Under the pieces are notes generated by a model. The model was not told where the DNA came from, searched no databases, and saw only the letters and a list, made by a program, of their open reading frames with translations. The position numbers and the translations under genes were made by a program. A DNA stretch of 64,000 nucleotides from Desulfosarcina alkanivorans (GTDB taxonomy: Bacteria > Desulfobacterota > Desulfobacteria > Desulfobacterales > Desulfosarcinaceae), in the NCBI RefSeq assembly GCF_009688945.1, contig NZ_AP021874.1, positions 3,472,001 through 3,536,000 of the forward strand, in the 5' to 3' direction. This document shows positions 21,509 to 64,000 of the stretch, piece by piece. Every line of letters begins with the position of its first letter. The first letter of the stretch is position 1.

Positions 21509-22669
21509 ATGCCGCGCACATTCAAGCCCTTCCAAAAAGGTTGCAAGTTCGAATTTCATTCTCTTTTTCGACCAGCGATAAAGGCAACATCACAGATGCC
21601 AGCTCTCAATTCAAAAGGTAACCGACCCTTGCAGATGACTTTTGAAGAACATCTGCGGGCGCTTGTTTACTTTCACCTTGAAGAACATCACTCCGCTCAA
21701 CATCTGCTGCAAGTTCTCGAAGAAGATGATTTTGCCAAAAGTGAAATCGCACCGGAAAACGGAATCAAAAAAAGCAGCTTTTCAGAGGCCACCAACAGCC
21801 GGGGGCTTGAACAGTTCATGCATGTCTTTCAAAACCTGCAAGCCCAGGCCGCTGAAATTTTACCCAAACAACATCCCGAACTTGGCAATCTGATGGGCAT
21901 TGATGGTTCCCTGATCAATGCCTCCTTATCCATGCACTGGGCCGACTATCGTAAAAAATCAAAAAAGGCCAAGGTCCATGTCGGTTTTGACCTGAATCAG
22001 GCGATTCCAAGAAGGATTTATCTTACCGATGGTAAAGGTGCCGAAAGACCTTTCGTCAACTTAATCCTTTCCGAAGGACAAACCGGCGTTATGGACCGCG
22101 GTTACCAAAGCCACAAACACTTTGACCAATGGCAGCGCGACAGAAAATCGTTTATGTGCCGGATCAAGGCCAGTACTAAAAAAACGATCATTAGGGAAAG
22201 CCCGACTGCCCCTGGTAGCATCGTCTTTTTTGATGCCATCGTTATTCTGGGAACTACTGAAATCAATCGAACCAAAGAACCGTTGCGCCTGGTAGGATAC
22301 GAAGTCGATCGTGTCAAATACTGGATCGCCACCAATCGTGTCGACTTAACCGCCGAACAAATCGCTGCTGCGTATAAGCTTCGCTGGGACATCGAAAACT
22401 TTTTCGCTTGGTGGAAACGGCACCTGAAAGTCTATCATCTCATCGCCAGAAGCGAGCATGGACTGATGGTGCAAATTCTGGCCGGCCTGATCACCTATTT
22501 GTTGTTGGCGATCTATTGCCATCGCGAATTTAACGAGCGGGTTTCAATCAAACGCGTTCGCCAACTACGCATAAAAATACAAAATGAATTACGCGCGAGC
22601 ATGTATGATAAGCCGCCTGATTCAAATTCCAAAGAACAACAATTACGAGAAGTTAATGCAAAAACTTAA
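21509..22669 (+). CDS. IS4-family transposase (DDE)
   Basis: The 386 residues make a DDE transposase. The first Asp is in LMGIDGSLI, the second in GVMDRGYQ, and the Glu is in the Y-x2-R-x3-E signature YKLRWDIENFFAWWK, with the lysine seven residues after the Glu as in IS4 family enzymes. AGGAGG upstream supports the ATG. Codon use is AT-richer than in neighbouring genes. The stop codon lies inside the right inverted repeat. No frameshift or early stop is present, so it appears functional. Confidence 0.92.
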   Translation: MPRTFKPFQKGCKFEFHSLFRPAIKATSQMPALNSKGNRPLQMTFEEHLRALVYFHLEEHHSAQHLLQVLEEDDFAKSEIAPENGIKKSSFSEATNSRGLEQFMHVFQNLQAQAAEILPKQHPELGNLMGIDGSLINASLSMHWADYRKKSKKAKVHVGFDLNQAIPRRIYLTDGKGAERPFVNLILSEGQTGVMDRGYQSHKHFDQWQRDRKSFMCRIKASTKKTIIRESPTAPGSIVFFDAIVILGTTEINRTKEPLRLVGYEVDRVKYWIATNRVDLTAEQIAAAYKLRWDIENFFAWWKRHLKVYHLIARSEHGLMVQILAGLITYLLLAIYCHREFNERVSIKRVRQLRIKIQNELRASMYDKPPDSNSKEQQLREVNAKT

Positions 22670-48171: not shown

Positions 48172-48309
48172 GTCAACACTCCTGTGATTCCACCTTGCAT
48201 TCAGACGCGACCGGTGGTGGTGGCGTCGCCGGGTCCTCGACGACCGGTTGAGAATCGACGGCGTCTGACCCGCCATGCCGCCCGGGCCGCTTCGTGATAC
48301 CAGGCGAAA

Positions 48310-50157
48310 TTAGAAAATGGCGTCAAACCGGCATTTGTCGTAGCAGGTCAGACACTTGATACACTTATCCTTGTCGATGCGGGCCACTTCCTTTTTCTTC
48401 CAGGCGATGGCATCGGCCGGGCAGGCCCTGAAGCACATCCCGCAACCGGTGCAGGCCTCTGGGTCCACCTCGAACTTCAGAAGGGCCACGCAGCGTTTGG
48501 CCGGACATCGCTTTTCATGGATGTGGGCCTCGAACTCGTCCCGAAAGTACCGCAGGGCCGAAAGCACCGGGTTGGGTCCCGTCTGCCCCAGCCCGCACAG
48601 GGCGGTTTCGCGGATGGTCTGTGACAACTCGATCAGCGTGTCGATATCGCCCGGTTCTCCGCGGCCCTCGCAGATTTTTTCCAGAATCTGGAGTTGACGG
48701 CGGGTGCCCTCCCGGCAGGGGGTGCATTTACCACAGGACTCGTCCTGGATGAACTCCATGAAAAAGCGGGCCATGTCAACCATACAGGTCTTTTCATCCA
48801 TGACGATGGCACCGCCGGACCCCATGATGGCCCCGACCCGGGCAATGGCCTCGTAGTCTACCGGCGTATCCAGATAGGCCTCCGGAACGCAGCCGCCCGA
48901 GGGGCCGCCCAGTTGCACGGCCTTGAATTTTCTTTTCTTGGGAATACCGCCGCCGATGTCGTAAATGATCGTGCGCAGGGAGGTCCCCATGGGCACCTCC
49001 ACCAGGCCGATGTTGTTCACGTCTCCGGACAGGGCGAAGACCTTGGTGCCCTTGCTGCTTTCAGTGCCCACGCTGGCATACCAGGCGCCGCCGTTGACCA
49101 TGATCTGGGGCACATTGGCCAGGGTTTCCACGTTGTTGAGAATGGTGGGCTTCTCCCACAGGCCCTTGTGCGCCGGAAAGGGCGGGCGCGGGCGCGGCAT
49201 GCCGCGCCGGCCTTCGATGGAGCGCATCAGCGCGGTCTCTTCACCGCAGACAAAGGCGCCGGCACCCTGGTAGATCTCGATGTCAAAAGAAAAATCCGAT
49301 CCCAGAATGTGCTCTCCCAGAAGCCCGTAGGCCTTGGCCTGGTCGATGGCGATGCCCAGCCGCTTGATGGCCAGAGGGTATTCGGTGCGGGCGTAAATAT
49401 AGCCTTTGTGCGCGTCGATGGCCCTGGCGGCGATGATCATGCCCTCCAGCACCGCATGGGGGTCGGCCTCGAGGATGCTTCGATCCATGAAAGCCCCGGG
49501 ATCGCCCTCGTCGGCGTTGCAGAGCACATATTTGACCGCACCGTCACTCTGGCTGGCAAAATCCCATTTAACGCCCGTGGGAAACCCGGCACCGCCGCGT
49601 CCGCGCATGCCGGAGGTCTTCATCTCTTCGATGATCTGCCCGGGGGTCATGTCGAACAGCGCCTTGGCCGCACCGATGTATCCGTCCCGTCCGATGTACT
49701 CATCGATGACTTCGGGGTCGATCAGCCCCTTGTTGCGCAGGGCCCGCGGCATCTGGTGGGCAAAAAATGGAATTTCCGTCTGGACGGCAATTTTGGCCTT
49801 GGACACGGGATCTTTGTATAGCAGGCGTTCCACCGGCTTGCCGTTGACCAGGTGGGATTCCACCAACTCGGGCATATCCTCCACGGTGAGTTTCTGGTAG
49901 AAGATGTCGCCGGGATGCACCACCAGGATGGGCCCCATGGCGCAAAAGCCGTTGCAGCCGGTCTCGATGACCTGGACCTTTTCACCCAGCCCTTTTTCGT
50001 CGATGGCCGCCACCAGGGCATCCTTGACCCGGATGGCACCCGTTGCATGGCAGCCGGTGCCGCCGCAGATCAACAGGTAGGTCCTGTCCCTGAATGCCAT
50101 CCGTTCTTTCTGCGCCTGCCTGATGTCTTCCAGACCCGAAGTGGTCAGTTTCGCCAT
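48310..50157 (-). CDS. NuoF/HydB-like NADH-binding flavin Fe-S subunit
   Basis: The 615 residues have an N-terminal thioredoxin-like [2Fe-2S] domain (cysteines near 31, 36, 68, 72), then the NADH/FMN core with GRGGAGFPTG near 186-195 and GSGGAIVMDE, the 4Fe-4S motif ESCGKCTPCREG, and a C-terminal pair of ferredoxin clusters (CTGCGMCFRACP; CIKCLTCYDKC). This is the HydB/NfnF-like layout of electron-bifurcating enzymes, longer than plain NuoF (about 440). GGAGACGGG precedes the ATG. In the usual hydrogenase operons the catalytic HydA follows; here the RnfB-GltD fusion follows. Confidence 0.9.
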   Translation of the reverse strand: MAKLTTSGLEDIRQAQKERMAFRDRTYLLICGGTGCHATGAIRVKDALVAAIDEKGLGEKVQVIETGCNGFCAMGPILVVHPGDIFYQKLTVEDMPELVESHLVNGKPVERLLYKDPVSKAKIAVQTEIPFFAHQMPRALRNKGLIDPEVIDEYIGRDGYIGAAKALFDMTPGQIIEEMKTSGMRGRGGAGFPTGVKWDFASQSDGAVKYVLCNADEGDPGAFMDRSILEADPHAVLEGMIIAARAIDAHKGYIYARTEYPLAIKRLGIAIDQAKAYGLLGEHILGSDFSFDIEIYQGAGAFVCGEETALMRSIEGRRGMPRPRPPFPAHKGLWEKPTILNNVETLANVPQIMVNGGAWYASVGTESSKGTKVFALSGDVNNIGLVEVPMGTSLRTIIYDIGGGIPKKRKFKAVQLGGPSGGCVPEAYLDTPVDYEAIARVGAIMGSGGAIVMDEKTCMVDMARFFMEFIQDESCGKCTPCREGTRRQLQILEKICEGRGEPGDIDTLIELSQTIRETALCGLGQTGPNPVLSALRYFRDEFEAHIHEKRCPAKRCVALLKFEVDPEACTGCGMCFRACPADAIAWKKKEVARIDKDKCIKCLTCYDKCRFDAIF

Positions 50158-50176
50158 ATCCCGTCTCCAGCAGTTT

Positions 50177-50530
50177 TTACCAGGAACCGTCCAACCCCCT
50201 GATGCCGTTCATGTAGAGTCGCCCGCAAGCCACAAACAACGAATACTCGGTCACCATCAGTGGAATTTCGAAGGATTTGGCCATCTCGATGAATTCCTTG
50301 GGCGGGTTTTTGCCCCTGACAATGACGATGGTTTCGACACCGACAATTTTTGACGTCCGGATAACATGGTCCGTGGTAACACCTGTCAACAGGACGCAGC
50401 CCTTGGCCGCGGCAGCCAGAACATCTTCCATCAGGTCCGCCGCACCACCGGCGACGATGACCGCGTCCATCCGGTCTTCCCCACAGAGCATGCGGCCCTT
50501 GAGGATTTCTTTGATTTCGGAAATTTTCAT
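50177..50530 (-). CDS. DRTGG-domain protein
   Basis: The 117 residues are one DRTGG domain (MKISEIKEILKGRMLCGEDR, then AADLMEDVLAAAAKGCVLLTGVTTDHVIRT). The family is named for a motif seen in phosphotransacetylase-like proteins; in anaerobes it is often encoded next to HydB/HydC-type genes. Its role there is unknown; the position between NuoE- and NuoF-like genes suggests a regulatory or assembly part of the complex. Confidence 0.88.
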   Translation of the reverse strand: MKISEIKEILKGRMLCGEDRMDAVIVAGGAADLMEDVLAAAAKGCVLLTGVTTDHVIRTSKIVGVETIVIVRGKNPPKEFIEMAKSFEIPLMVTEYSLFVACGRLYMNGIRGLDGSW

Positions 50531-50576
50531 AATTACGATGTCTTATAACATGAGGGTTAAGGGCAAAGGAGCCTGG

Positions 50577-51071
50577 TTATGAATATTTTTCGAGCAATTC
50601 GATCACTTTATCGGAACTGACATCCCCGTAGGTGTCCTGGTCCACTACCATCACCGGTGCCAGGCCACAGGCCCCCAGGCAGCGGACGGCTTCCAGGGAA
50701 AACCGCCGATCGTCGGTGGTGCCGCCCTCTTTCAGCTGATATTCGTTTTCGATGCGGCTCAGGGCTTCTTTGATCCCCTTGACGTAGCAGGCGGTCCCCA
50801 GGCACATCCTGATGGTGTGACGGCCCTTGGGCACCATTGAAAAAAGGGAGTAAAAGGAAGCCACACCGTATACGCTGCTGGCGGGCAGGTTGAGTCCCTG
50901 GCTGATGTAGTCGAGCAATTCCACAGGAAGGTATCCGGCGATGGTCTGGCACTCTCTGAGAACGGTGATCACGGCACCGGAAACAGCCTTGTTGGCGTCG
51001 ATGACCGCGTCAATCCGGGCCCACATCTCGTCGTTGATATCCGCATGGTGCGGATGGTGTTTCTCGGTCAT
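50577..51071 (-). CDS. NuoE/HydC-like [2Fe-2S] subunit
   Basis: The 164 residues are a thioredoxin-like ferredoxin with the cysteine pattern CLGTAC and CLGACGLAP, giving four ligands for one [2Fe-2S] cluster. Typical NuoE of about 160 residues. GGAG about ten bases before the ATG supports the start at 51071. It is the first gene of the operon and faces the purine-salvage genes divergently across a 287-base promoter region. Confidence 0.92.
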   Translation of the reverse strand: MTEKHHPHHADINDEMWARIDAVIDANKAVSGAVITVLRECQTIAGYLPVELLDYISQGLNLPASSVYGVASFYSLFSMVPKGRHTIRMCLGTACYVKGIKEALSRIENEYQLKEGGTTDDRRFSLEAVRCLGACGLAPVMVVDQDTYGDVSSDKVIELLEKYS

Positions 51072-51181
51072 GTCGACAGCGCTCCTTTGGCCACAAAATG
51101 CAATTCGTTCGAAACCGCTTTCAATCGCCGGATCGGCCACCTGCACGGCCATTGGCGCAGACCGCGGGTAACCGCGTGGCA

Positions 51182-51206
51182 ACATTTCATAATTATATAG
51201 AAATGT
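51182..51206. promoter_or_regulatory. Dyad in the divergent promoter region
   Basis: ACATTTC (51182-51188) and GAAATGT (51200-51206) are inverted repeats around an AT-only centre of 11 bases. It is AT-rich in a GC-rich genome and placed between two divergent operons. It could be an operator. On the minus strand a TTGACA overlaps its edge, but the nearby TATAAT is too close to be its partner. Confidence 0.45.
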
Positions 51207-51244
51207 CAACGATATCATAGCCGTCGGCGCCCTTCCGAGAGCGC

Positions 51245-51274
51245 TTGACGCAGCCGTAAAAGCTGGTCTATAAC
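51245..51274 (+). promoter_or_regulatory. Promoter candidate for the purine-salvage operon
   Basis: TTGACG (51245-51250), 18 bases, TATAAC (51269-51274): five of six matches in each box. The start would be near 51281, 78 bases before the chosen TTG. Confidence 0.55.
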
Positions 51275-51358
51275 CCAACCGCCCGGACGGTGATGCCAAT
51301 CGATGTCGCGATGACCGGTATCGTCGGACCCCCACCCAGAAACCACCGGAGGCCGTCA

Positions 51359-52198
51359 TTGGAACGTCTGAAAGAGAAAGTCCTTGAAACCACAGCGTTT
51401 ATCCGCTCGAAGATCAGCCATCCACCCGGCACCGGAATGATTACCGGCACCGGTCTGGGCGAGGCCGTCGGCCCCCTCGATGACGCGTTGACCATGGATT
51501 ACGCCGACATCCCCCATTTCCCGGTCTCCACGGTGGCCGGTCATTCCGGGCGGCTGGTTGCAGGCACCCTGGATGGACACGCGATGATGGTGATGCAGGG
51601 GCGCTTCCACCTCTACGAAGGCTACGCCCCCGCCGCCGTGACGTTTCCCGTCCGGGTGATGCAGGCACTGGGGGTTCGTCACCTGATTATTTCCAATGCA
51701 GCCGGCGGCATGAACCCTGCCTTTCGCCAGGGGGACCTGATGGTGATTCGCGACCACATCAACCTGACCGGCGAAAACCCGCTGATCGGGCCCAACAATG
51801 AGGACTGGGGGCCACGGTTTCCCGACATGACGGCGGCCTACGACCGGTCCCTGATTCAATTTTCCCGCCGGGCGGCGGACGGCTTGGGCATCACCCTGAA
51901 AAGCGGTGTTTATGCCGGATTGAAGGGACCGTCCCTGGAGACGCCGGCGGAAATCCGCTACCTGAAAACCATCGGTGCCGATGCGGTGGGGCTGTCCACG
52001 GTAATGGAAACCATCGCCGCCGTGCATGCCGGCATACGGGTGTTGGGCCTGTCCACCATTACCAATATCAACAATCCGGACCAACCCTTGCCGGCGGCGG
52101 TGGAGGACATCATCGCCGTGGCCAACCGGACGGCCCCCGTCCTCAACCGGCTGATCCGGGCCGTGGTGGCGCAAATCCGCACAGGAGCCCGTTCATGA
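51359..52198 (+). CDS. Purine nucleoside phosphorylase (trimeric class)
   Basis: The enzyme splits purine nucleosides with phosphate, most likely inosine, guanosine or 5'-methylthioinosine. The 279 residues show GTGLGEAV, GRFHLYEGY, IISNAAGGMNP, GVYAGLKGPSLETPAEIR and LSTITNINN. The Glu in ETPAEIR and the Asn in STITN are the residues that in this class select 6-oxopurines, so inosine-type substrates are favoured over adenosine. I start at the TTG at 51359 because GGAGG (51348-51352) lies six bases before it and the family length fits; GTG 51290 or ATG 51293 would add about 23 residues. It overlaps the next gene by four bases. Confidence 0.88.
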   Translation: MERLKEKVLETTAFIRSKISHPPGTGMITGTGLGEAVGPLDDALTMDYADIPHFPVSTVAGHSGRLVAGTLDGHAMMVMQGRFHLYEGYAPAAVTFPVRVMQALGVRHLIISNAAGGMNPAFRQGDLMVIRDHINLTGENPLIGPNNEDWGPRFPDMTAAYDRSLIQFSRRAADGLGITLKSGVYAGLKGPSLETPAEIRYLKTIGADAVGLSTVMETIAAVHAGIRVLGLSTITNINNPDQPLPAAVEDIIAVANRTAPVLNRLIRAVVAQIRTGARS

Positions 52199-53508
52199 CC
52201 CCCCAAACCGACCTGCTGATCACCAACGGCATCGTCATGACCATGGACCCGGACGACCGTGTCATTCAACATGGCGCGGTGGCCGTGTCCGCGGATACGA
52301 TCACGGCAGTGGGCCCGGCGACCGAAGTTGCCCGGCGACCGGCCAGAACCACCATCGACGCCGCCGGCGGCATCATCATGCCCGGCCTGGTCAATACGCA
52401 CACCCACGCCGCCATGAGCCTGTTCAGGGGCCTGGCCGACGACCTGCCCCTGATGGACTGGCTCAACGACCACATCTTTCCCGCCGAGGCCCTTTTGGAC
52501 AAGCACAAGGTGCACGCGGGAACACTGCTCGCCTGTGCGGAGATGATCCTTTCCGGGACCACCTGCTTTTGCGACATGTATCTTTTCGAGGAGGCCGTGG
52601 CCCGCGCCGCCAGGGCTGCCGGCCTGCGGGCGGTGGTGGGGGAGGTGCTCTACGACTTCCCCTCGCCCAATTATGGCACCATCGAAAAAGGCTTCGACTA
52701 CACCCGCCGCCTGATCGACGCCTGGCACGGCGACCCGCTGATCACCATTGCCGTGGAACCCCACTCCCCCTACCTGTGCGCACCGGAGCTGCTGACCGAA
52801 GCCGCCGACATCGCCCGCGAGCACGGCCTGCCCCTGGTGATTCACCTTTCCGAGACCCGCCGCGAAGTGGCGGACATCCGGAAGCGCTATGGTGCCACGC
52901 CGGTGGGACACCTGGCCAATCTGGGGGTGCTGGGGGACAATCTGCTGGCCTGCCATTGCGTGGTGCTGGATGACACCGACATGGATCTGCTCGGGCAGCA
53001 CGACGTCCGGGTGTCCCACAATCCGGAGAGCAACATGAAGCTGGCATCCGGCGTCTCCCCGGTGGCCGATCTGCTGGAGCGGGGCGTGTGCACCGGTCTG
53101 GGCACCGACGGCTGCTCCAGCAACAACAACCTGGATCTGTTCACCGAGATGGACATGGCCGCCAAACTGCACAAGGCCAGCCGCCTGGACCCGACCGTGA
53201 TGAATGCTGCCACCGTGCTGCGCATGGCCACCATCGACGGCGCGCGCGCGCTGGGGCTGGACGGCATCACCGGCAGTATCGAAACCGGCAAGAAAGCCGA
53301 CATTATCGTCGTCGACACCCGCAAGCCCCACCTGACGCCCATGTATCACCCGGCGTCCCACCTGGTCTATTCCGTCGGCGGAAGCGATGTCAGCGCCACC
53401 GTGGTGAACGGCCGGGTGCTGATGAAAGACCGCCGGCTCATGCACATGGACCTTGAAAAAATCATGGCCGATGCCAGCCGGATCGCCGAAACCATCCGGA
53501 GCCGATAG
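52195..53508 (+). CDS. mtaD: 5'-methylthioadenosine / S-adenosylhomocysteine deaminase, copy 1
   Basis: A zinc amidohydrolase of the MtaD/TrzN-like family that turns methylthioadenosine or S-adenosylhomocysteine into the inosine analogue. The 437 residues show NTHTH (metal ligands), VEPHSPYLC, VIHLSETRREV, CHCVVL and GTDGCSSNNNLD. The ATGA overlap with the phosphorylase gene implies coupling: the deaminated product would be a substrate for that phosphorylase. Confidence 0.9.
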   Translation: MTPQTDLLITNGIVMTMDPDDRVIQHGAVAVSADTITAVGPATEVARRPARTTIDAAGGIIMPGLVNTHTHAAMSLFRGLADDLPLMDWLNDHIFPAEALLDKHKVHAGTLLACAEMILSGTTCFCDMYLFEEAVARAARAAGLRAVVGEVLYDFPSPNYGTIEKGFDYTRRLIDAWHGDPLITIAVEPHSPYLCAPELLTEAADIAREHGLPLVIHLSETRREVADIRKRYGATPVGHLANLGVLGDNLLACHCVVLDDTDMDLLGQHDVRVSHNPESNMKLASGVSPVADLLERGVCTGLGTDGCSSNNNLDLFTEMDMAAKLHKASRLDPTVMNAATVLRMATIDGARALGLDGITGSIETGKKADIIVVDTRKPHLTPMYHPASHLVYSVGGSDVSATVVNGRVLMKDRRLMHMDLEKIMADASRIAETIRSR

Positions 53509-53509
53509 C

Positions 53510-54829
53510 ATGGGTTTCGATGTGGTAATCCATAACGGCACCCTGGTGACCGTGGACCGGCACATGCGGGTCATCGAAAACGGCTGGATCGGCATTGAGG
53601 CAGACGTCATCCGGGCCGTTGAATCCGGCAGGCCGGGCACACCGCCCCCCGGGGCCGGCCTGACCATCGATGCCGCCGGCGGCATCGTCATGCCCGGACT
53701 GGTCAACACCCACACCCATCTGCCCATGTCCCTGTTCCGCGGCCTGGCCGACGATCTGCCGTTGGAGGAATGGCTCGACGACCACATCTTTCCGGCCGAG
53801 GCCCGGTTCATCAGGCCAGATACGGTGCACTGGGGCACCCTGCTCTCCTGCGCGGAGCTGCTGCTGTCCGGCACCACCTGCTGCTGCGGGGGATATTTCC
53901 ACGAAGACGCGGTGGCCCGGGCCGTCGCGGAAACCGGCATGCGGGCCGTACTGGCCCAGGGCGTCATCGATTTTCCGGCACCCGGGGTGCCGGACCCGGC
54001 GCAAAACATTGTCCACGCCAGGGTATACGCACATAAGTGGAAGGGCGGCAACCCGTTAATCACCCCGTCCATCTTCTGCCATTCACCCTACACCTGCAGT
54101 GACGACACCTTGAAAGCCGCCAAGGCCGAGGCCGAGGCGTCCGGCCTGCTGTATCAGGTGCACGTGGCCGAAACCCGGTTCGAACGGGACCAGTCCCTCA
54201 AGGAGAGGGGCATGACGCCCGTCGCGCGCCTGGACCGGCTTGGACTGATCGACCGTCGCACCCTGATGGCCCATTGCGTCTGGGTGGATGATGCCGACAT
54301 CGACATCATCGCCAGACGGAACGGTGCGGTCTCCCATTGCCCGGAAAGCAACATGAAGCTGGCCTCGGGCAGCGCGCCGGTAGCCGGCATGCTGAAGGCG
54401 GGCATCAGGGTTTCACTGGGCACCGACGGTTGTGCCAGCAACAACAACCTGGACCTGTTTGGCGAAATGGATACGGCGGCCAAACTGCACAAGTTGACCA
54501 CCGGCAACCCCACGACACTGGGCGCGGGCAGTGCGCTCAGCATGGCCACCATCGACGGCGCCCGGGCCATCGGCCTGGCGGACCGCATCGGATCCCTTGA
54601 AATCGGCAAGCAGGCAGATGTCATCATCCTCGAGGCACGCGCCCCGCACCTGACGCCGTTGTATCACCCGGAATCGCACATCGTCTACGCGGCCTGCGGC
54701 GCGGACGTGCGCCATGTACTGGTGGCCGGCAGGCAGGTGGTCAAAAACCGGCGGATGCTGACCCTGAATGTCCCTGAAATCATGGATCGCGTCAACGCCA
54801 TCGCCCGGGAGATCCGGTCAAACCAATAG
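53510..54829 (+). CDS. 5'-methylthioadenosine / S-adenosylhomocysteine deaminase, copy 2
   Basis: The 439 residues are a tandem paralogue of the previous gene: NTHTHLPMSLFRGLADDLP and GTDGCASNNNLDLFGEMDTAAKLH match copy 1 almost residue for residue, but the middle differs (FCHSPYTCSDDTLKA in place of VEPHSPYLCAPELLT, HVAETRFERDQ in place of HLSETRREVAD). Metal ligands are kept. The ATG at 53510 starts one base after the copy-1 stop. Substrate may differ from copy 1. Confidence 0.85.
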   Translation: MGFDVVIHNGTLVTVDRHMRVIENGWIGIEADVIRAVESGRPGTPPPGAGLTIDAAGGIVMPGLVNTHTHLPMSLFRGLADDLPLEEWLDDHIFPAEARFIRPDTVHWGTLLSCAELLLSGTTCCCGGYFHEDAVARAVAETGMRAVLAQGVIDFPAPGVPDPAQNIVHARVYAHKWKGGNPLITPSIFCHSPYTCSDDTLKAAKAEAEASGLLYQVHVAETRFERDQSLKERGMTPVARLDRLGLIDRRTLMAHCVWVDDADIDIIARRNGAVSHCPESNMKLASGSAPVAGMLKAGIRVSLGTDGCASNNNLDLFGEMDTAAKLHKLTTGNPTTLGAGSALSMATIDGARAIGLADRIGSLEIGKQADVIILEARAPHLTPLYHPESHIVYAACGADVRHVLVAGRQVVKNRRMLTLNVPEIMDRVNAIAREIRSNQ

Positions 54830-55048
54830 ATTGGCGTGTTCGGCAATGCTCGCTTTTTTTCCCGACACCAAACCCGGGGAAGCTGAAAAGAGCAAATTGC
54901 ATGCACCAAATCCCAAATTACAACATCTAAATTTCAAGTAAGATCAAAAAATCTGGCGGTTGGTTATTTGTTTATGGGTTGAATTTCCCGAACCATCATT
55001 GAGCACGGCGACCCGCTATTGAACATCGATCCAAAAAAGGAATGCATT

Positions 55049-56758
55049 ATGGACCTGAAAACCATCATTACCGCCGCCCGGGGTGACGCTCCGGTGGACC
55101 TGCTGCTGACCCGCGCCAGGATCGTCAACGTCTTTTCCGGCCGGATCATCGACGGCAGCATCGCCGTCAAAGACGGTCATATCGCCGGTTTCGGCGATTA
55201 CGATGCCACCGAGACACTGGACATCGGAGGGCGTTTCGTGGCTCCCGGATTCATCGACTCACACGTCCACATCGAAAGTTCCATGACCTGCGTCACCGAA
55301 TTCGCCCGTACCGTGGTCCCCTGCGGCACCACCGCCGTGGTGGCCGATCCCCACGAAATCGCCAACGTGCTCGGTGCGGCGGGCATCGACTACATGCTCC
55401 GCTCGGCCGAGGGCCAGCCCATGGACTGCCTTTTCGCCCTGCCCTCCTGTGTGCCGGCCACGGATATGGAGACCGCCGGCGCCCGGCTGAGGGCCGGGGA
55501 TCTTGCCCCCTTCTTCGGGCATCCGCGCATCGTGGCCCTGGCCGAGATGATGAATTACCCCGGCGTGATCTTCACCGATGCGGACGTGATGGCCAAACTG
55601 GCCCTGGCCCGCAGCCACCATCGCCCCATGGACGGCCACGCCCCGGGCCTGTCCGGCAGGCAGCTGTTTGCCTATGCGGCCGCCGGCATCGCCTCGGACC
55701 ACGAGTGCACACGGGCCGAAGAGGCGCTGGAGAAACTGGAACTGGGCATCCACATCATGGTGCGCGAAGGCACCTGCGCCCGCAACCTGGACGCCCTGTT
55801 CCCCGTCATCAACGAACATACCCGGCGGTGGATGATGTGGTGCACCGACGACCGCCACCCCCACGACCTGCTCGCCGAGGGCCACGTGGACGCCATAATC
55901 CGTAAAGCCGTGGCAAAGGGGCTGGATCCGCTGACGGCCATCCGCATGGGCACCATCAATCCGGCCGACTACTTCGGCATCCGCGACGCCGGGGCCATCG
56001 CCCCGGGGCGCAAGGCCAACCTGGTGGTCTTTTCCGACCTGGCGGACATCCGCGCCGAACAGGTATTTTACCGGGGCCGGCCGGTGGCCCAAAACGGCCG
56101 TCTGTTGCCCGGCGTAGGGCGGCCGGCCCCGGTGGCCGTGCCGCCGTCCATGCGTCTGGATCCACGCCATCTGGACTTTTCCATACCGGCCGCAGGCAGG
56201 CGCATACGCGTCATCCGGGCCATTGCCGACCAGGTGGTCACCCGCTGCGAGATCATGGACGTGACCGAAAAAGACGGGATGGCCGTGGCCGATGTGGCCC
56301 GGGATGTGATCAAGATGGCCGTGGTGGACCGCTACACGGGAGAGGCCCGCACCGGCAGTGGATTTGTGACCGGACTCGGGTTGAAGCGCGGGGCCGTCGC
56401 GTCCAGCGTGGCCCACGACTCCCACAACATCATCGTTGCCGGCGCCGACGATGGGGACATGCGCGCGGCGGTCGCCGCCGTGGCGGAGATGGGCGGCGGA
56501 TTCGCCGCGGTCGACGACGGCCGGGTTCTGGCCTCCCTGCCCCTGCCCGTGGCCGGCCTCATGTCCGACCAGCCGGTGGAGACCGTGCGGCAGCAGATGG
56601 ACGGAATGATCGCGGCGGCAAAAAGTCTGGGAGCCACGCTTTCAGACCCTTTCATGACCCTGGGATTTTTGGCCCTGCCGGTCATTCCGGACCTGAAGCT
56701 CACCGACCGGGGGCTGGTGGATGTCCATCGGTTCGAGATCGTGCCCCTCTTTACGTAG
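55049..56758 (+). CDS. ade: Adenine deaminase
   Basis: The enzyme deaminates adenine to hypoxanthine. The 569 residues have the amidohydrolase motif SHVHIESSM, PHEIANV, ALAEMMNYPGV, HGPGLSG-like GHAPGLSGRQL, the SDHECTRAEEA stretch and TDDRHPHDL, all typical of Ade (about 570-600 residues). AAGGA precedes the ATG at 55049; the frame is open 10 codons upstream but from a TTG without ribosome site. Ends in a convergent overlap with the PKS gene. Confidence 0.93.
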   Translation: MDLKTIITAARGDAPVDLLLTRARIVNVFSGRIIDGSIAVKDGHIAGFGDYDATETLDIGGRFVAPGFIDSHVHIESSMTCVTEFARTVVPCGTTAVVADPHEIANVLGAAGIDYMLRSAEGQPMDCLFALPSCVPATDMETAGARLRAGDLAPFFGHPRIVALAEMMNYPGVIFTDADVMAKLALARSHHRPMDGHAPGLSGRQLFAYAAAGIASDHECTRAEEALEKLELGIHIMVREGTCARNLDALFPVINEHTRRWMMWCTDDRHPHDLLAEGHVDAIIRKAVAKGLDPLTAIRMGTINPADYFGIRDAGAIAPGRKANLVVFSDLADIRAEQVFYRGRPVAQNGRLLPGVGRPAPVAVPPSMRLDPRHLDFSIPAAGRRIRVIRAIADQVVTRCEIMDVTEKDGMAVADVARDVIKMAVVDRYTGEARTGSGFVTGLGLKRGAVASSVAHDSHNIIVAGADDGDMRAAVAAVAEMGGGFAAVDDGRVLASLPLPVAGLMSDQPVETVRQQMDGMIAAAKSLGATLSDPFMTLGFLALPVIPDLKLTDRGLVDVHRFEIVPLFT

Positions 56759-59700
56759 GTGTTTGGCTTTTGGCGATGGCGGCATCAATGGCCTCCCGGA
56801 CCCGATCCGGAAACCGGGCGGCCATCGGCCGGCCCTGTTCATCCCGCCGGGTCCACACGGCCCGGTGCATGCCATAGGCAATTTTCACCCGCGACCCGTC
56901 CGGCTCCAGGCGGAAGTAATCCACGTGGAAAATCACGCTGCAGGCGTGCAGTTCCCTGACGGCCAGGGTGAGCACAATACGGTCGAAGGGCATGGCCTCA
57001 CGAAGGTGATCCACGCGGCTCTCCAGGGCCAGCAGTTCTCCCTTCTCCCCGATGCCCCCGAAGGTTTCGGGGATCAGTTCATAGAAAAACCGGTCCCGGA
57101 TCTGGCCCTGCCACTCGTAGTAGTTGGCGTAGTAAATGTTGCCCACCAGGTTGGCGTGCGCCAGGGTGGTTTCGAAAGTCTGTTCCCGAACGATGGGACG
57201 CACCACGGGGCCGGACGGGGCCATGTAGACGACGGGGTCATCGTCGCCGGCGAGCAGGTGCCCCAATGATTCCTGCATGGGTTCGAGAGTGTCCGGTGCG
57301 TCGAACTGCGGACACATGTCTTCGATGAACTGACCGTAATAGGCCGGATAGGGGGCGACCCTGGCCACTCCCGGCCCCAGGATCTCCACCCAGGTGGTCT
57401 GCAGCCGGCAGAAGGCCAGGCGCTCGTATCCGCCGCCTTTCATCATTTTGCGGAAATCGTAGGACAGGGTCATGGTGGAATTCTCCGGCCCGCTGTTGTC
57501 CGACACCCACATGAGGATTTCGATCTGGTCGCTGGTGCCCGCCTCCCCTAATATCTTCAGGTGGCCGTAGTTGGTCACGCCGCCCCATCGGCCGCTGGCA
57601 AACTGGTCGGACATTTCCGCCAGGACCGGCCAAGCCGAGGCCTCGCGGGTATTCCCCATCCATTTGATAAAGTTGGAAAAATAGACGGTTCGGCTCAGGT
57701 TGGCGCTGGGCTGGAAGGTCACCGGCAGCCGCTGGACAAAGACCAGCTGACCCTGGGGGCCGCCTTCGATCATCTCGAAGGGGCGGGTCTCGTACAGGGG
57801 GTCATAGCCCGGATAATCGGCTGTCAGCAGATGCGCCGGCACCCGCGGCACGGCCTGTGCAGAAACCGTGACGGCCAGAACCTGGGGCGCCCCCCACGTC
57901 AGACGAATGGCCAGGGTCAGTACCCGGATGGGTGCCCCGTCGGCATCGTCGCCGACAAACAGCACCGCTTGATCTTTTTTGTCCACGATCGAAAGGGTTG
58001 CACCGGATCCGCCGCCGGCCTTGGCCAGGGCTTCGGCCGCCGCCCAGACCCGTGTTCCGGCTGTGTCCAGGTCCTCTCCCCGGTCGATGAGCGTGTCCAG
58101 CAGCTCGATGCGCCGGGCACCGAGCAGGCCGACCCACGCCTTACGGTCTCTGGGGGTGACGGCAGCCAGATCGCACCCCACCGGTCCGGGCCCGCAGACG
58201 CACAGGCAGGTCCGGTCCTCGTGGGTAAGGGAAATGTCCAGAACGGGCGCGGGCACATCGGCAACCACCGGTTTTCCGTTATCCTGCCACCTGACCGCCA
58301 ACGGCAATGGGGCAACACCATGGCGTTCGGCGGCGGCAGACAGGGCCCGTTCCATCAACGGCGCCTCCTCCCGGTGCCGTTGGTCTACCGGCATGTCATG
58401 GATACCGGGGAGACAGGCCAGCTCCAGCGGAGGGGACGTCACCGAAAGGCGCCGGCAGGCCTCGTCCAGGGCATCACCGACCAGGCGGCGGTCCCGATCT
58501 TCGGGAAAAACCAGGTCGGCCACCGTCGGGTAGTCATCGTGGTGTTTGAGGATCCGCAGCCGGTATCCGTTCAACACGGCCATCTGCGTTCCGTTGTCAC
58601 CGACGGCGGCCACCCGGTAAATCAGGTCCCGGTCTTCCTGTTCCATCAGTTCCACGCGCACCCTAGCGGAAGCGGCCGCACTGAAAAAACCGGGGAACAG
58701 GTCCATGCGGTCGATGGATACGGGCAGACTGGTATCCTGGGGTACCAGCAGGGCCGCACTTTGAAGGAGGGTGTCGGTAAAAAAGGGATCGCCCAGGCAC
58801 AGGCGGGTGGGTTTGGCCTCTCCGAAAACAGGTGTTTGCAGCCGGTCTTCCGGCACCCTTTCGGATGACAACAGGGCCGTCCCCGCTTCCGCACCGGACG
58901 TCCGGATATCCCAGACGGTCCGGATGCGCTGGAACCGGGGTCCCTGGAAAAGCAGGCTGGGCCGGTACAGGTCGGTCTGCGGCACCAGTGCCATGGACGC
59001 GGCCGGAAGGGCGACAGTTTCCACGGATGCACTGCCTGCGGCGTCAAAAACCAGGGTGGCTGCAAAAAAGTCCGACTGGACACCGGTGCCCTGCTTGACG
59101 ATACCGGCATGGACCACGGTTTCCCCGCCGGCCGCCGCCTCGGCCAGTCGTGCATGGACCGTGATGTCGGCGCCTGTTTCGGCATCGACGGTGATGGGCC
59201 GCAGGAGTCGGACATCCCGGAACTGAACCCGCGATAACTTCGTGCGGCCACACAGGTAAAGCGCGGCCTGGGCCATGGCTTCCAGACCGAAAACCGTCGG
59301 GAACAGATAGGAGCCCTGGAAATGATGGTCTTTCAGGTAGGGATCGGTCTCCAGGGAAAGTCGGGTTGAAAAAACTGCTTCCACCCCGGGAGACAGATAG
59401 CTTCGATTCTCCAGAAATCGCCACTCACGGGGCAGGCCGGGCAACACCTGTTGCCAGGTGTCGAGCCCTGCCATGCGGGCGGTCACCACGGTCTGGCGAC
59501 GGCCCGGATCATGGGTAAAAATCCTGAGGAACCGGGCAACCCCCTCGTCGGTGGGAATCGCATCGATGCCCTTGTCCCGCAGCAGGTCGACGCTGCCCAT
59601 GCGGGCCCCCATCCCTTCGTCCCGCCAGATGCTGTAGGCCACCGTGGCCGCCTGTGTCCGGGGGTGGTCGGCGCAAAACCCGCGCAGGGCAATGTCCATG

Positions 59701-62700
59701 GTCTCATTGGAGAAACCGTACCAACCGTTGCCGGGCATGCCGGTGATGCCGATGATGGACCCCATCCCCAGGATCAGTTTGGGCGGCTTGGCCTGCAGGG
59801 CGTCCAGCAGGTGCAGCAGGCCCAGCACCTTGGGGGCGGTTTCGGCGTAGGCCTGCTCCGGATTGACCCGGCCGGTAAGCCGCGGCCGGTTGAGGCCGGC
59901 GCCGTGGATGATCCCTGTCACCGGGCCGAAGCGGCCGGCAACGTCGGCCAGCATCTGCGCCACCGCATCCCGACTGGCCATGTCACAGGAAAAATAGTCG
60001 ACGGGCAGCCCGAGGGCGGCATACTTATCTAAAAGGGTGCGGATCTCCCGGGCCCCGGATGCGCCAGGGGCCTGATCCGGATGGGGGGTACGGCCCACCA
60101 GCGCCATGGGCACACCGGTCTCCCTGGCCACCGCCAGGGCGCAGAGGGCCGTAATGCCCCGTGCCCCGCCGGTGACGAGAATGACATCGTCGCCTGACCA
60201 CCGCAGGTCCCTTTTCCTGTAGGCCGCCGGTTGGGCGAGGCGTGGCATGAACGTCCTGCGGGTTTGGTCCAGATCGTACCCGACAGCGGCAAAGCTGTCC
60301 TGGGTGATGGTCTCGGCCAGGGTTTCCAGGGCGATGGTCTCCGCTGGCAGGGCCGGGCAGAAATCCACCACGCGGACGCGAAGGTCTGCCCGTTCAAGGT
60401 GAAGGCTGGCCGCCAGGGCCAGGGCGCCACAGCGATCCAACCGGGCAAAACGGGGCTTTCTGCCGAAAAAGCCACCGCCGAACTGAACCCATGCCACGGT
60501 GGTCCGGCGCCGGGGAGCACTGGCCGCCGGCGGCAGGGAGGCCACGCTGGCCCGCATGCGGATCATCCGCCTCAGCAGGGCCGATCGATCTTTTTCCCGA
60601 TGATCGTTTTTGGGCAGGATCGCCACCAGGTGGGAAAAGGCCGGATCCCGGACGTCTTTTTCAACCGCGTCGGCGTCAAAGGCACGCACCCGGGTGGCGG
60701 CCCCGCGCTGGAAAAAATGCCTGCCGAGCGCTGAGGCCACGTCAGCCGAGTCCTCGCTGTGGAGAATCAGCACCCGGGCCTTCTGCCAGTCGTTTTCCGA
60801 CCGCATGCGCCAATTGTCGGGAAACGATGGATAAGGGGTTTTGACCAGGTCCATGCTGAAATTGCGCACCCAGGAGGGCCGGCCGGCAGCCGCTTTGGGT
60901 CCGGCAACGGTGCCCCCGTCGCCGGCACCGTGCTGTTCGGCGGCCATGCGGCTCAAAATTGCGCTGATCTGCCTCAGGCTTCGCGTCAGCATCGGTTCGA
61001 TATCCACATGGGCCTGTATGCCCATGGCCCTCGCGGTTTGCCGGACCAGCGTTTCAAGCTTGTCCGGCCCCATGTGAAGGCCCTGCTCGACCGGCAGGTC
61101 CGGGTCCAGGGCATCATCTGAAAAACCGGTGATCCGGGTGGCCTGTTCGAGCAGTTCGGTCAGTGCATCCGGCGGCGCCGCCGCCGGGGCCGGCAGGGAT
61201 TCCAGGCCGGCAGCGATCCGATCCACCACCCGGGCCAGGCTGGCGTTGGCCAGAGACGTTGCATCCACAGGGTCGGACAACCCGGCATCGCCGGCCAGGC
61301 GGACAATCAGATCCCCGGCCTTGATCGAGTCCAGGTTCAGATCGTCCAGGAGCCGCATGGACAATTCAATGCTCTCCGCCGGGAACCCGGTGGTATCCGA
61401 TACCAGGGCCACCAGCCGTTTGCCCAGGTCGGCGCGGTCAACCACCGGTTGGCCGCCGGCCCCCGGCAGATCATCCTGCAGCCGCTGTGCCGCATCGGCC
61501 AGTTCGCCTAACGCCGCATTGGCCAGCAGCGCCGGATCGGGGAAAGAGACGCCGCAGGTCCTGGCGAAACCGGCGATCAGGTCCCCGGCCTTGATCGAGT
61601 CCAGGTTCAGATCGTCCAGGAGCCGCGAATCCCGGGACAGGGTCTCGGCGGAAAACCCGGTCAGGTCCGAGACCATCCGGAACAGGATAACCTGCGCCGC
61701 CTCCGGGGCATCACCGCCAACCAACGTCGCGGCCGGGCCCTTGCCGGCATCATCCTCCGGCCGGGCATCCGGGTCCCAATAGGCCAGATCGGCCTGCACC
61801 ACCCGGTTTAAAAAGCCGCCCCGTGAATCCAGGTAACGGCTGACCAGGGCTTCCGGCACGCCGGCAAAGGCGTCGGCCAGGATGGTGGTGGTTGGATCGG
61901 TCGGTATCGGCTCGACACCGGCGTCACCGCCTTCGTTCCGGGGAAGGGTTTCACAGGGGTTGACCACAAAGGATTTTTGGTCTGCCGGAACAAAGGGCCG
62001 AATCAGCCGGTTTTCAAAAAGTGCTTCCCAATTCATCGGCACCCCATGGGCAAACATCGCTCCCAGGACGCGGTGCAGATCCGAAAAACCGCCGGCCCTG
62101 CCTTCCACCGGCAGGCATGCCGGCCCCGCCTCACCGACAATGTCTCCGGCAAGACCGGTCAGCACCCGCCCCGGTCCCAGTTCGACAATCAGATCGCACG
62201 CTTGGGCCATTTCCCCGACCAAACCAATGAAATCAACCTGCGACCGAATCTGCCGGGAAAAATGCTCGCTGAGGGGTAGCCCCGATTTCAGGACCGCGCC
62301 CGTGACGCTGGAAAAGACCGGACACGCGGGTTCTTCCATCGCCCTGGAAAGCAGGTCGAAGCCGGCCACCTGCCGGGCGGCCGCCTCACACAAACGACTG
62401 TGAAAGGCGTTGGAAACCGGCAGCTTGCGGGCTTCGACCCCCTTTTCCCGGGCGATTCTGGCCATGGCGTCGACAGCCGCCAATTCCCCGGACAGCACCG
62501 TCTGACGGGGGCTGTTGAGGTTGGCGACCGTGAGATAGCCATCGACGTCCGGGATCAACGCCATGGCGGTGGTTTCGTCACACCGCAGGCTGACCATGGC
62601 GCCCGGTGCATCCCCGGCCGCGGACATCGCCTGCCCGCGGCGGGCGGCAAATTCCAAAAGCGTGTCAGCATCAAACACACCGGCGCAATAACAGGCGGTC

Positions 62701-64000
62701 AGCTCGCCCAGGCTGTGTCCGCCGACAGCTGCCGGCCGGACGCCCAGCCGGGTTAAAAAGCCGAGCCACAGCATCGAGGCCAGGCAGATGGCCGGCTGGG
62801 CATGTTCGGTACGGGCGAGTGCGCGAAACCAGCGGTCCAGCTCTTCCGGGCCGGAGGCCCGATCCGTGTCCCTGAAAACCAGGCGGCCAATCGGAATTCC
62901 GCCGATTTCACGGGTGATCCCATCCGCCTGCCGGACCAGCGATCGGGCCCAGGGGAATCGATCGGCCAGTGTCCGCGCCATGTTGAGCTGCTGGGACCCC
63001 TGGCCTGGAAACAGGAACCCGATCCGGGGGCTGGCGGTGCCCGTTCCCAGCCATATGTCGGCACCCAGAGCCATGGTCCGCCGGTCATCCGCTCTTTTTT
63101 CATCGCGCAAGAAGGCTGCCAACCGGTCCAGCCGGTCGATCAGGTCATCGGGATGACCGGCGACAATCGCCGCCCGGATGGACGCATCCGGCGGCACCCG
63201 CCGGCTCGTTTCAGCGGAAAGGTCGGCCAGCTCGGCGATGCTGATGCCGTCGGCGGCCGTGACCAGGTCCGCGATGGTTTTCAGCATCCCCGCCTGACCG
63301 GCGGCACCCAGCACCATCAGTTCACTTTCCTGGGCGTGGGCCAGCAGCATCCTTTCCTCCAGGGCGGGTTCCAGCCGGTCGTCGGGGGCGTCTCCGGACA
63401 CCAGGGTAAGGTGGCAGTTGATGCCGCCAAAGCCCATGGCGGAAACGCCGGCCGTCAGTTGCTTGTGGGCAGGCACCCGCCGACCGTGGCGGACGGGATA
63501 AAGCCGTCGGGCCGCGCTGTCGAATGCCTGATGGGGGTCGCTGCACGCAGCGGTCGGGGGGACCACCCGACGGTTGACGGCCATCACCGCCTTGATCAGC
63601 CCGCCGATGCCCGACGCCGCCTTGGTGTGGCCGATGATGGATTTCAGGGAGGTGATGCCGCAGGGCCGCAGCTGGCCGCGGGGCACCGGTGTGCCTCCCA
63701 GGACCCGGGCAATGGCTTCCAGCTCGGTGCGGTCCCCCACGGTGGTACCGGTGCCGTGGCCTTCGATGAAATCCAACGCCTCGATGTCGTGGGGAGCCTG
63801 CCGGTATGCCCGCTCGAGGGCCAGGGCCTGACCGGCGGCGCTGGGGGCGGTAATTCCCGAACCGCCGCCATCCGAAGAGATGCCCCAGCCGTTAATCACC
63901 GCGTAGACCCGGTTGCCGTCCCGCCGGGCAGCCGCCAGGGGTTTGAGCACCAGGAAACCGCAGCCTTCACCGGGGATGAAACCTTTGCCGCCACGGTCAT
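56751..64000 (-). CDS. Enediyne-like iterative type I polyketide synthase with fused PPTase and two thioesterase domains; 5' end outside window
   Basis: The frame runs off the right edge; 2415 residues are visible, numbered here from the first whole codon (63998). KS remainder, 1 to about 190 (GHGTGT about 80; GHTKAASGIGG about 125). AT, about 320-640 (FPGQGSQQ; GHSLGE; NAFHS, malonyl type). ACP1 and ACP2 with DLNLDSIKAGDLI, serines at 801 and 891. A third ACP-like unit at about 978 reads HMGPDK, proline replacing serine, so inactive. KR from about 1270 (TGGARGI; GWYGFSN). DH near 1556 (DHHFQG). PPTase near 1900-2000 (DISLTHEDR; WAAAEALAKA). Two hotdog thioesterase-like domains, near 2104 (TVYFSNFIKWMGNTREA) and 2285 (LVGNIYYANYYEWQGQIRD). 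KS to PPTase order is that of enediyne PKSs, and the last domain resembles their separate thioesterase. The product is unknown. Confidence 0.85.
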   Translation of the reverse strand, partial: DRGGKGFIPGEGCGFLVLKPLAAARRDGNRVYAVINGWGISSDGGGSGITAPSAAGQALALERAYRQAPHDIEALDFIEGHGTGTTVGDRTELEAIARVLGGTPVPRGQLRPCGITSLKSIIGHTKAASGIGGLIKAVMAVNRRVVPPTAACSDPHQAFDSAARRLYPVRHGRRVPAHKQLTAGVSAMGFGGINCHLTLVSGDAPDDRLEPALEERMLLAHAQESELMVLGAAGQAGMLKTIADLVTAADGISIAELADLSAETSRRVPPDASIRAAIVAGHPDDLIDRLDRLAAFLRDEKRADDRRTMALGADIWLGTGTASPRIGFLFPGQGSQQLNMARTLADRFPWARSLVRQADGITREIGGIPIGRLVFRDTDRASGPEELDRWFRALARTEHAQPAICLASMLWLGFLTRLGVRPAAVGGHSLGELTACYCAGVFDADTLLEFAARRGQAMSAAGDAPGAMVSLRCDETTAMALIPDVDGYLTVANLNSPRQTVLSGELAAVDAMARIAREKGVEARKLPVSNAFHSRLCEAAARQVAGFDLLSRAMEEPACPVFSSVTGAVLKSGLPLSEHFSRQIRSQVDFIGLVGEMAQACDLIVELGPGRVLTGLAGDIVGEAGPACLPVEGRAGGFSDLHRVLGAMFAHGVPMNWEALFENRLIRPFVPADQKSFVVNPCETLPRNEGGDAGVEPIPTDPTTTILADAFAGVPEALVSRYLDSRGGFLNRVVQADLAYWDPDARPEDDAGKGPAATLVGGDAPEAAQVILFRMVSDLTGFSAETLSRDSRLLDDLNLDSIKAGDLIAGFARTCGVSFPDPALLANAALGELADAAQRLQDDLPGAGGQPVVDRADLGKRLVALVSDTTGFPAESIELSMRLLDDLNLDSIKAGDLIVRLAGDAGLSDPVDATSLANASLARVVDRIAAGLESLPAPAAAPPDALTELLEQATRITGFSDDALDPDLPVEQGLHMGPDKLETLVRQTARAMGIQAHVDIEPMLTRSLRQISAILSRMAAEQHGAGDGGTVAGPKAAAGRPSWVRNFSMDLVKTPYPSFPDNWRMRSENDWQKARVLILHSEDSADVASALGRHFFQRGAATRVRAFDADAVEKDVRDPAFSHLVAILPKNDHREKDRSALLRRMIRMRASVASLPPAASAPRRRTTVAWVQFGGGFFGRKPRFARLDRCGALALAASLHLERADLRVRVVDFCPALPAETIALETLAETITQDSFAAVGYDLDQTRRTFMPRLAQPAAYRKRDLRWSGDDVILVTGGARGITALCALAVARETGVPMALVGRTPHPDQAPGASGAREIRTLLDKYAALGLPVDYFSCDMASRDAVAQMLADVAGRFGPVTGIIHGAGLNRPRLTGRVNPEQAYAETAPKVLGLLHLLDALQAKPPKLILGMGSIIGITGMPGNGWYGFSNETMDIALRGFCADHPRTQAATVAYSIWRDEGMGARMGSVDLLRDKGIDAIPTDEGVARFLRIFTHDPGRRQTVVTARMAGLDTWQQVLPGLPREWRFLENRSYLSPGVEAVFSTRLSLETDPYLKDHHFQGSYLFPTVFGLEAMAQAALYLCGRTKLSRVQFRDVRLLRPITVDAETGADITVHARLAEAAAGGETVVHAGIVKQGTGVQSDFFAATLVFDAAGSASVETVALPAASMALVPQTDLYRPSLLFQGPRFQRIRTVWDIRTSGAEAGTALLSSERVPEDRLQTPVFGEAKPTRLCLGDPFFTDTLLQSAALLVPQDTSLPVSIDRMDLFPGFFSAAASARVRVELMEQEDRDLIYRVAAVGDNGTQMAVLNGYRLRILKHHDDYPTVADLVFPEDRDRRLVGDALDEACRRLSVTSPPLELACLPGIHDMPVDQRHREEAPLMERALSAAAERHGVAPLPLAVRWQDNGKPVVADVPAPVLDISLTHEDRTCLCVCGPGPVGCDLAAVTPRDRKAWVGLLGARRIELLDTLIDRGEDLDTAGTRVWAAAEALAKAGGGSGATLSIVDKKDQAVLFVGDDADGAPIRVLTLAIRLTWGAPQVLAVTVSAQAVPRVPAHLLTADYPGYDPLYETRPFEMIEGGPQGQLVFVQRLPVTFQPSANLSRTVYFSNFIKWMGNTREASAWPVLAEMSDQFASGRWGGVTNYGHLKILGEAGTSDQIEILMWVSDNSGPENSTMTLSYDFRKMMKGGGYERLAFCRLQTTWVEILGPGVARVAPYPAYYGQFIEDMCPQFDAPDTLEPMQESLGHLLAGDDDPVVYMAPSGPVVRPIVREQTFETTLAHANLVGNIYYANYYEWQGQIRDRFFYELIPETFGGIGEKGELLALESRVDHLREAMPFDRIVLTLAVRELHACSVIFHVDYFRLEPDGSRVKIAYGMHRAVWTRRDEQGRPMAARFPDRVREAIDAAIAKSQTPT
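61312..61356 (-). repeat. 45-bp direct repeat around the ACP2 serine
   Basis: Identical over 45 bases to 61582-61626, exactly 270 bases (90 codons) away. It covers the phosphopantetheine site. Confidence 0.9.
61582..61626 (-). repeat. 45-bp direct repeat around the ACP1 serine
   Basis: Partner of 61312-61356. The rest of the two ACP units is more diverged, so the identity looks like recent duplication or gene conversion. Confidence 0.9.

Follow-up and report, generated by a model that had tools for sequence, protein, structure and literature searches.

Desulfosarcina alkanivorans encodes, on a single chain of 2684 amino acids, a polyketide synthase (PKS) that belongs to a sister family of the enediyne PKSs and probably acts as a self-sufficient iterative polyene synthase, judging from its domains and their sequence relationships. 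The gene lies on the minus strand at the end of the window, the 64,000-nucleotide stretch of DNA analysed here (positions 3472001-3536000 of a single 7.32-Mb contig), where an open reading frame scan finds a frame at 56751-63998 that is open up to the window edge. In the genome sequence past the window the ORF is complete, running from 56751 to about 64805 (L003:751-8805, minus strand), and the window holds 56751-64000 of it, with the 5′ end outside. The original prediction had pointed to the sequence beyond 64000 for the ketosynthase cysteine, which is present there as C216. It had also proposed a sulfate-reducing anaerobe as host; a dsrA match in the genome (608.9 bits, cut-off 392.85), taken with kinship, supports that description of D. 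alkanivorans.

Domain layout and the double-hotdog thioesterase

The protein is laid out as KS-AT-ACP-ACP-(ACP remnant)-KR-DH-PPTase-TE1-TE2, all on the minus strand. The ketosynthase (KS; 63393-64000 in the window, domain to about 64784) carries C216 in the motif DGACSSS together with H350 and H393, and the acyltransferase (AT; 62091-63038) has S698 in GHSLGE and H802 in an AFH motif. Two intact acyl carrier proteins, ACP1 (61482-61718, Ser1070) and ACP2 (61206-61454, Ser1160), were identified by Pfam and share the motif DLNLDSIKAG; they are followed by an ACP-like remnant of only 16 bits (60936-61178) that has no DSI/DSL serine motif. The ketoreductase (KR; 59496-60488), within which an adh_short_C2 match from Pfam falls, has S1683, Y1696, and N1700, and the PKS-type dehydratase (DH; 58551-59438) has H1827 in HxxxGxxxxP and D2011. 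Pfam and residue checks together support KS, AT, KR, and DH. The 4′-phosphopantetheinyl transferase domain (PPTase; 57846-58478), with D2212, E2258, and K2262, precedes two hotdog domains, TE1 (57306-57803, R2387) and TE2 (56754-57272, N2552 and R2570).

For the part of the protein inside the window, Pfam matches to the C-terminal half of the KS, the AT, the two ACPs, the KR, and the PKS-type DH exceed their cut-offs, and a 4HBT_2 match at the protein end is below its own (20.2 vs 25.5 bits). Among the 25 of 62 NCBIfam matches listed for the same part, the PPTase matches AcpT at 29.2 bits vs a cut-off of 174 (6e-7), and it is seen more clearly by homology to the PPTase of SgcE (30%, 7e-15); NF045894 (PKS_plus_SDR) reaches 464.1 bits vs a cut-off of 1740 with this KS-truncated query. 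Neither the Pfam matches nor these listed NCBIfam matches include a separate enoylreductase domain. An alignment with relatives shows the expected catalytic residues of the KS (Cys-His-His), AT (Ser-His), KR (Ser-Tyr-Asn), DH (His-Asp), PPTase (Asp-Glu-Lys), and TE2 (Asn/Arg) to be in place; the PPTase Asp column has Asp in only 12 of 20 enediyne rows, so the alignment is poor in that part.

The one-chain order KS-AT-ACP-KR-DH-PPTase is that of the enediyne PKSs (PKSEs), as originally predicted, and the collinearity of the protein with SgcE reaches as far as the PPTase (residue 1888 of 1939). The tandem ACPs and the thioesterase on the PKS chain, likewise foreseen, are also real, with TE1 as an additional domain ahead of TE2. 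SgcE and SgcE10 of the C-1027 pathway (Streptomyces globisporus), names assigned here by cluster position and for SgcE10 also by identity to PDB 4i4j, share the domain order and the thioesterase family with D. alkanivorans, whose PKS differs in having the thioesterase fused and duplicated, two intact ACPs, and a KS in the sister clade.

The expectation that the last hotdog would be close to the SgcE10/CalE7 type was borne out. The best solved relatives of TE2 are CalE7 (3e-16), SgcE10 (6e-16), and DynE7 (4e-12), with 4-hydroxybenzoyl-CoA thioesterase far behind (0.0013). TE2 is 32% identical to SgcE10 and carries the signature NLVGNxYYxNYxxWQGxxR of the CalE7/SgcE10 family, including its Asn and Arg, the catalytic residues of CalE7. 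TE1 is a second, divergent enediyne-thioesterase-like hotdog N-terminal to TE2, matching DynE7 at 0.0037 and TE2 at 2e-6; an NCBIfam scan of TE1 and TE2 alone assigned them to no family. Aligned relatives retain the TE1 Arg in 47 of 47 and the TE2 Asn in 45 of 47, with the TE2 Arg in 37 and the TE1 Asn in 17. TE1, which lacks its Asn in 30 of the 47, may be structural only; loss of the TE2 Arg vs loss of the TE1 Asn gives a Fisher p of 0.07 with relatedness ignored, which is suggestive only. CalE7 and its kin are absent among the 50 matches listed in fold comparisons, which is no evidence against CalE7 kinship. Plant FatA/FatB acyl-ACP thioesterases are about 13% identical to TE1-TE2, and since the TE1-TE2 sequence belongs to the enediyne-thioesterase family, this likeness is one of fold only. 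No separate E10 hotdog thioesterase gene was found in the genome of D. alkanivorans, whose single TE1-TE2 match is the one fused to the PKS, where this type is present as TE2.

Phylogeny, distribution, and neighbouring genes

Screening of 88 loci gave 72 with a KS of at least the length needed; with four duplicates dropped and eight references added, these formed a quick tree of 76 rows that drew long-branch warnings, and removal of FabF and PfaC gave a careful tree of 74 rows in which L120 and the outgroup rows remain long. In this tree the D. alkanivorans PKS falls in a clade of 49 rows with fused thioesterases (98/99) and outside the enediyne clade of 20 rows (SgcE and 19 actinobacterial loci; 98/97), which a Flavivirga sequence joins (99/96). 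The two clades together are set apart at 100/100 from PfaA, a Streptomyces PKS, and two more type I KSs from Streptomyces that are regarded as modular. By this phylogeny the D. alkanivorans KS is sister to the known enediyne PKS clade, not inside it, and it does not nest among fatty acid or polyunsaturated fatty acid (PUFA) synthases, the placement that would have spoken against the original prediction. Quick trees of KR+DH (72 rows) and TE2 (78 rows), built after seven loci were dropped and with long-branch warnings, and for KR+DH also uneven letter composition, give the same two-way split (100 and 99); they have no outgroup, so only the KS tree shows where the root between the two clades lies.

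The family is spread well beyond one species. Within the genus, 10 of 13 genomes carry TE1-TE2, and within the family 11 of 30 do, with D. alkanivorans counted. Across the order, matches are strong (E < 1e-60) in 24 of 389 genomes and number 43 of 389 when weak single-hotdog matches are counted; 14 of 395 genomes drawn from the phylum have a match, two of them strong, one being D. alkanivorans itself. Orthologous KSs within the genus are 82-89% identical. A gene of this kind in an anaerobic sulfate reducer is therefore less unusual than first supposed, given the strong matches in the order and the related KSs already in print (PMC10308959, available sections).

A wider scan of named genomes took the best 80 of 440 confirmed loci, fetched by the TE2-type signature, some from the same genome twice, with domain models built from Desulfobacterota members. 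Among these 80, sixty loci (L059-L118) come from Desulfobacterota, Methylococcales and other Pseudomonadota, Thermoactinomycetaceae, cyanobacteria, Omnitrophota, Nitrospirota, Myxococcota, Bdellovibrionota, and others; many are metagenome-assembled genomes (MAGs) and some loci share genomes, so single phylum labels are soft. The other twenty (L119-L138) are 19 actinobacterial enediyne-type loci and Flavivirga. The TE1-TE2 tandem is found in 58 of the first 60 loci, and the two misses, L074 and L117, begin at a contig edge; as loci were fetched by the TE2 signature, this is no census of the KS clade, and a thioesterase-free member could not appear. KS, AT, KR, DH, PPT, TE1, and TE2 stand in one frame in 31 of the 60, each with an ACP. 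TE1 was found in none of the 20 enediyne-type loci, and in every one of them the TE2-type domain lies on a frame separate from the PKS. A Pandoraea relative of 1474 aa (L108:6056-10480) has no KR or DH detected between ACP and PPTase.

On plasmids, the best KS match is in Gloeothece verrucosa (61%), followed by Streptomyces type I PKSs, including the C-1027 SgcE (53.7%). TE1-TE2 matches 57 plasmid records, and Gloeothece alone among them reaches 80% query coverage. The plasmid PKS of G. verrucosa PCC 7822 belongs to the same KS clade, but its chain is split in two after the AT, unlike that of D. alkanivorans, with KR-DH-PPT-TE1-TE2 forming the second protein. Downstream of the split PKS come three genes annotated 'tryptophan 7-halogenase', with a carotenoid oxygenase gene after them (L158:22719-29377).

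In D. alkanivorans the PKS gene stands alone. An adenine deaminase gene converges on it with an overlap of 8 bases, and a gene for a 590-aa protein diverges from it outside the window (L003:8977-10749, plus strand). The latter is a conserved neighbour of the PKS at 12 Desulfosarcina loci, a count in which some genomes appear twice, and has no Pfam, NCBIfam, or PHROGs match; a structural model based on four relatives was too uncertain to use (pLDDT 34.3). In this protein the motifs HASHQQIHQQ and QWELQLMPK recall, by eye, GalT/HIT proteins. The adenine deaminase closes a one-strand purine salvage cluster at 51290-56758 that also holds a purine nucleoside phosphorylase and two TRZ/ATZ-type deaminases with matches below cut-offs. 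Elsewhere in the window are a minus-strand electron-transfer complex at 46126-51359, with NuoE/HoxE-like, NuoF-like, and NAD(P)-binding/Fe-S proteins, and an IS4 family transposase above cut-off at 21509-22669.

Among the relatives, histidine kinases or kinase-receiver hybrids adjoin the PKS in 12 of the 60 loci, a raw Pfam count with part of the loci scanned. They lie on the same strand, upstream in L067, L069, L071, L072, and L073 and downstream in L084, L086, L102, L103, L111, L115, and L118, often with a gap or overlap of a few bases. Clustering alone places neighbours in L104 and L112 in the same kinase gene family; counter to this pattern, L070 has MTHFR and L065 a penicillin amidase. 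Two Methylococcus genomes have a PAS-GGDEF-EAL protein after the PKS (L105:10682-12604 and L109:10521-12704), and a Ser/Thr kinase-AAA protein diverges from the PKS in L066 (1-2346), with members of the same cluster in L064, L065, and L093. A flavin amine-oxidase-like gene (PF01593, a family that also includes carotenoid desaturases) follows the PKS in L036 (15422-16966), L076, L081 (10514-11965), and L083, in hosts as far apart as a Desulfosarcinaceae MAG and Shimazuella.

Alternative readings and the enediyne maturation genes

A different reading holds that the protein is a PUFA-type or general secondary-lipid synthase whose product, a hydroxy fatty acid or a polyunsaturated one, would go into membrane lipids, its enediyne likeness reflecting shared ancestry only. 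Several features count for this and against a polyene synthase: the AT gets a slightly better score with PfaA (145 bits, 35%) than with SgcE (133 bits, 36%), the ACPs are no nearer those of SgcE than those of PfaA, and a weak PfaA alignment (25%) spans the KR and runs into the DH region. Tandem ACPs, a PfaA-model score of 424.9 bits on the 2415-aa window part (among 25 of 62 NCBIfam matches listed), and a FatA-like double-hotdog release, which is typical of fatty acids, fit as well, and several uncharacterised lipid synthase types have been reported in Deltaproteobacteria (Shulse and Allen 2011, PMC3098273, available sections). D. alkanivorans has, however, a PfaA of its own at 831445-838035 (1644 bits, above the cut-off of 1010). 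It too is an iterative KS-AT-ACP(n)-KR enzyme, yet the KS of the PKS is only 37% identical to it, against 55% to SgcE, and lies in a separate clade. On KS-AT, the PfaA model TIGR02813 scores 398.3 bits, below its cut-off of 1010.1. DH and PPT searched alone both match SgcE, with no match at 1e-3 in the PfaA or in the PfaC-like frame of the same genome, and the absence of an enoylreductase from the matches listed also tells against this reading, which is unlikely. Identity as a PUFA synthase proper was rejected on the PfaA cut-off, the separate PfaA, and the KS tree. The PfaC-like frame (967974-972059; 2374 aa with PfaA-model matches) lies about 130 kb from PfaA.

Alternatively, the gene could encode a genuine enediyne PKS served by maturation genes at another place in the genome or of a kind unlike the known ones, with the organism making an enediyne. 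The sister position of its KS clade favours this, as do some relatives that carry maturation-type genes. In cyanobacterial L096 and L100 a DUF1702 (E3-type) gene directly follows the PKS and Asp replaces the TE2 Asn, so that these two are possibly nearer to enediyne-like chemistry; the L100 genome also has a weak E5-like match (4.5e-5, 28%). UnbV/ASPIC (E4-type) genes follow the PKS in gamma-proteobacterial L090 (Pfam), with genes of the same cluster, by clustering only, in L095 and L101. The DUF1702 and UnbV/ASPIC genes count against a clean line between the clades; the C-1027 E4 protein, however, has no match even in the L090 genome (G775). Ten enediyne clusters compared have E3, E4, E5, E, and E10 in common (PMC5181780, available sections). 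Searches of the D. alkanivorans genome with PF08012 and PF07593 detected none of the controls and were therefore repeated with known carriers, using PF08012 (DUF1702) for E3 and the C-1027 proteins for E5 and E4 (UnbV/CRTAC). Across 20 genomes or records these gave 6, 4, and 4 positives, respectively, with C-1027, Planobispora, and Catellatospora positive in all three, and each was found in 0/8 PKS-bearing Desulfobacterota genomes, D. alkanivorans included; several of the eight are incomplete drafts, and very distant homologues could escape. A canonical enediyne cluster was rejected on this result, and enediyne production by the organism is very improbable. The search for enediyne cassette genes that the original prediction suggested thus came back empty in these eight Desulfobacterota genomes, and its term 'enediyne-like' holds for the clade shared with enediyne PKSs; with the KS in the sister clade and E3, E4, and E5 not found, it must not mean 'enediyne-making'.

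Decay or disuse of the gene is harder still to credit. Some relatives are split, with L059 and L099 in separate frames and L106 in many pieces, and one genome of the order (G655) has stops inside the match (2 TAG). The D. alkanivorans protein is intact over its 2684 aa with its catalytic residues kept, eight genomes hold intact long frames (G013, G015, G017, G018, G022, G023, G028, and G134), and the genus KSs remain closely alike.

Predicted product and significance

As a polyene synthase, the enzyme would be armed by its own PPTase acting on the ACPs of the same chain; the AT would load malonyl-CoA, the KS would extend the chain repeatedly, and KR and DH would leave one double bond per round. 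With no enoylreductase domain among the matches listed for the chain, and unless such an enzyme acts in trans, the double bonds should stay conjugated. The TE1-TE2 double hotdog would then hydrolyse the polyene off the ACP, and should the final keto group escape reduction, the acid could lose CO2, as happens when 1,3,5,7,9,11,13-pentadecaheptaene is formed by SgcE with its separate thioesterase. The reported consumption of SgcE is one acetyl-CoA, eight malonyl-CoA, and seven NADPH; its thioesterase is reported to free this heptaene, listed with absorption bands at 336, 355, 373, and 395 nm and m/z 199.148, in a yield that depends on the PKS:thioesterase ratio (PMC8362062, available sections), a ratio that a fused thioesterase would fix. 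The same heptaene is named as the common intermediate of anthraquinone-fused enediynes (review PMC10971088, in part). The expected product is a conjugated polyene, acid or hydrocarbon; enediyne-type sequence fixes neither the chain length nor the fate of the last keto group. With no E3, E4, or E5 gene found, it is likely that the polyene serves as an end product or as the precursor of a non-enediyne compound, and one might guess at a membrane or redox-protective compound, for example.

A more far-reaching reading, offered tentatively, joins these points. One-chain polyene synthases would form a widespread family, many of its members in anaerobes, beside the enediyne PKSs; the built-in thioesterase would be an internal heterodimer in which the TE1 Arg and TE2 Asn make one working site as the reciprocal pair decays; the polyene would serve as a product by itself, possibly with a link to the recurring sensor kinases; and the enediyne system would have arisen from the same ancestor, taking the polyene as its starting material.

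Enediyne-type KSs in anaerobic Deltaproteobacteria have been known since 2023, when NaPDoS2/antiSMASH work reported them in Deltaproteobacteria and a marine-sediment clade, including four RefSeq KSs in anaerobes (three Deltaproteobacteria, one Spirochaetes), and gave Actinobacteria and marine ascidian extracts as the only reported sources of enediynes (PMC10308959, mSystems 2023, available sections); a cyanobacterial enediyne KS clade has also been described (PMC4247773, available sections). The 2023 report concerns KS domains, and a fused tandem thioesterase, an E3/E4/E5 test, and 'desulf' words do not appear in its available sections. Its KSs, a set matched here by description and not by sequence, probably include the fused-thioesterase family. 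In the literature searched, which lies largely outside subscription journals, neither the fused double-hotdog thioesterase nor a clade defined by it was found described.

Studies of enediyne evolution gain a comparison group in this sister family, which occurs in sulfate reducers, methane oxidisers, cyanobacteria, and others, combines PPTase and thioesterase on one chain, and in the tested Desulfobacterota genomes has no maturation genes that were found. The D. alkanivorans PKS is closely related to the enzymes that initiate the biosynthesis of enediyne anticancer antibiotics; it would offer a single-gene source of a conjugated polyene and may represent a new polyene class for strict anaerobes.
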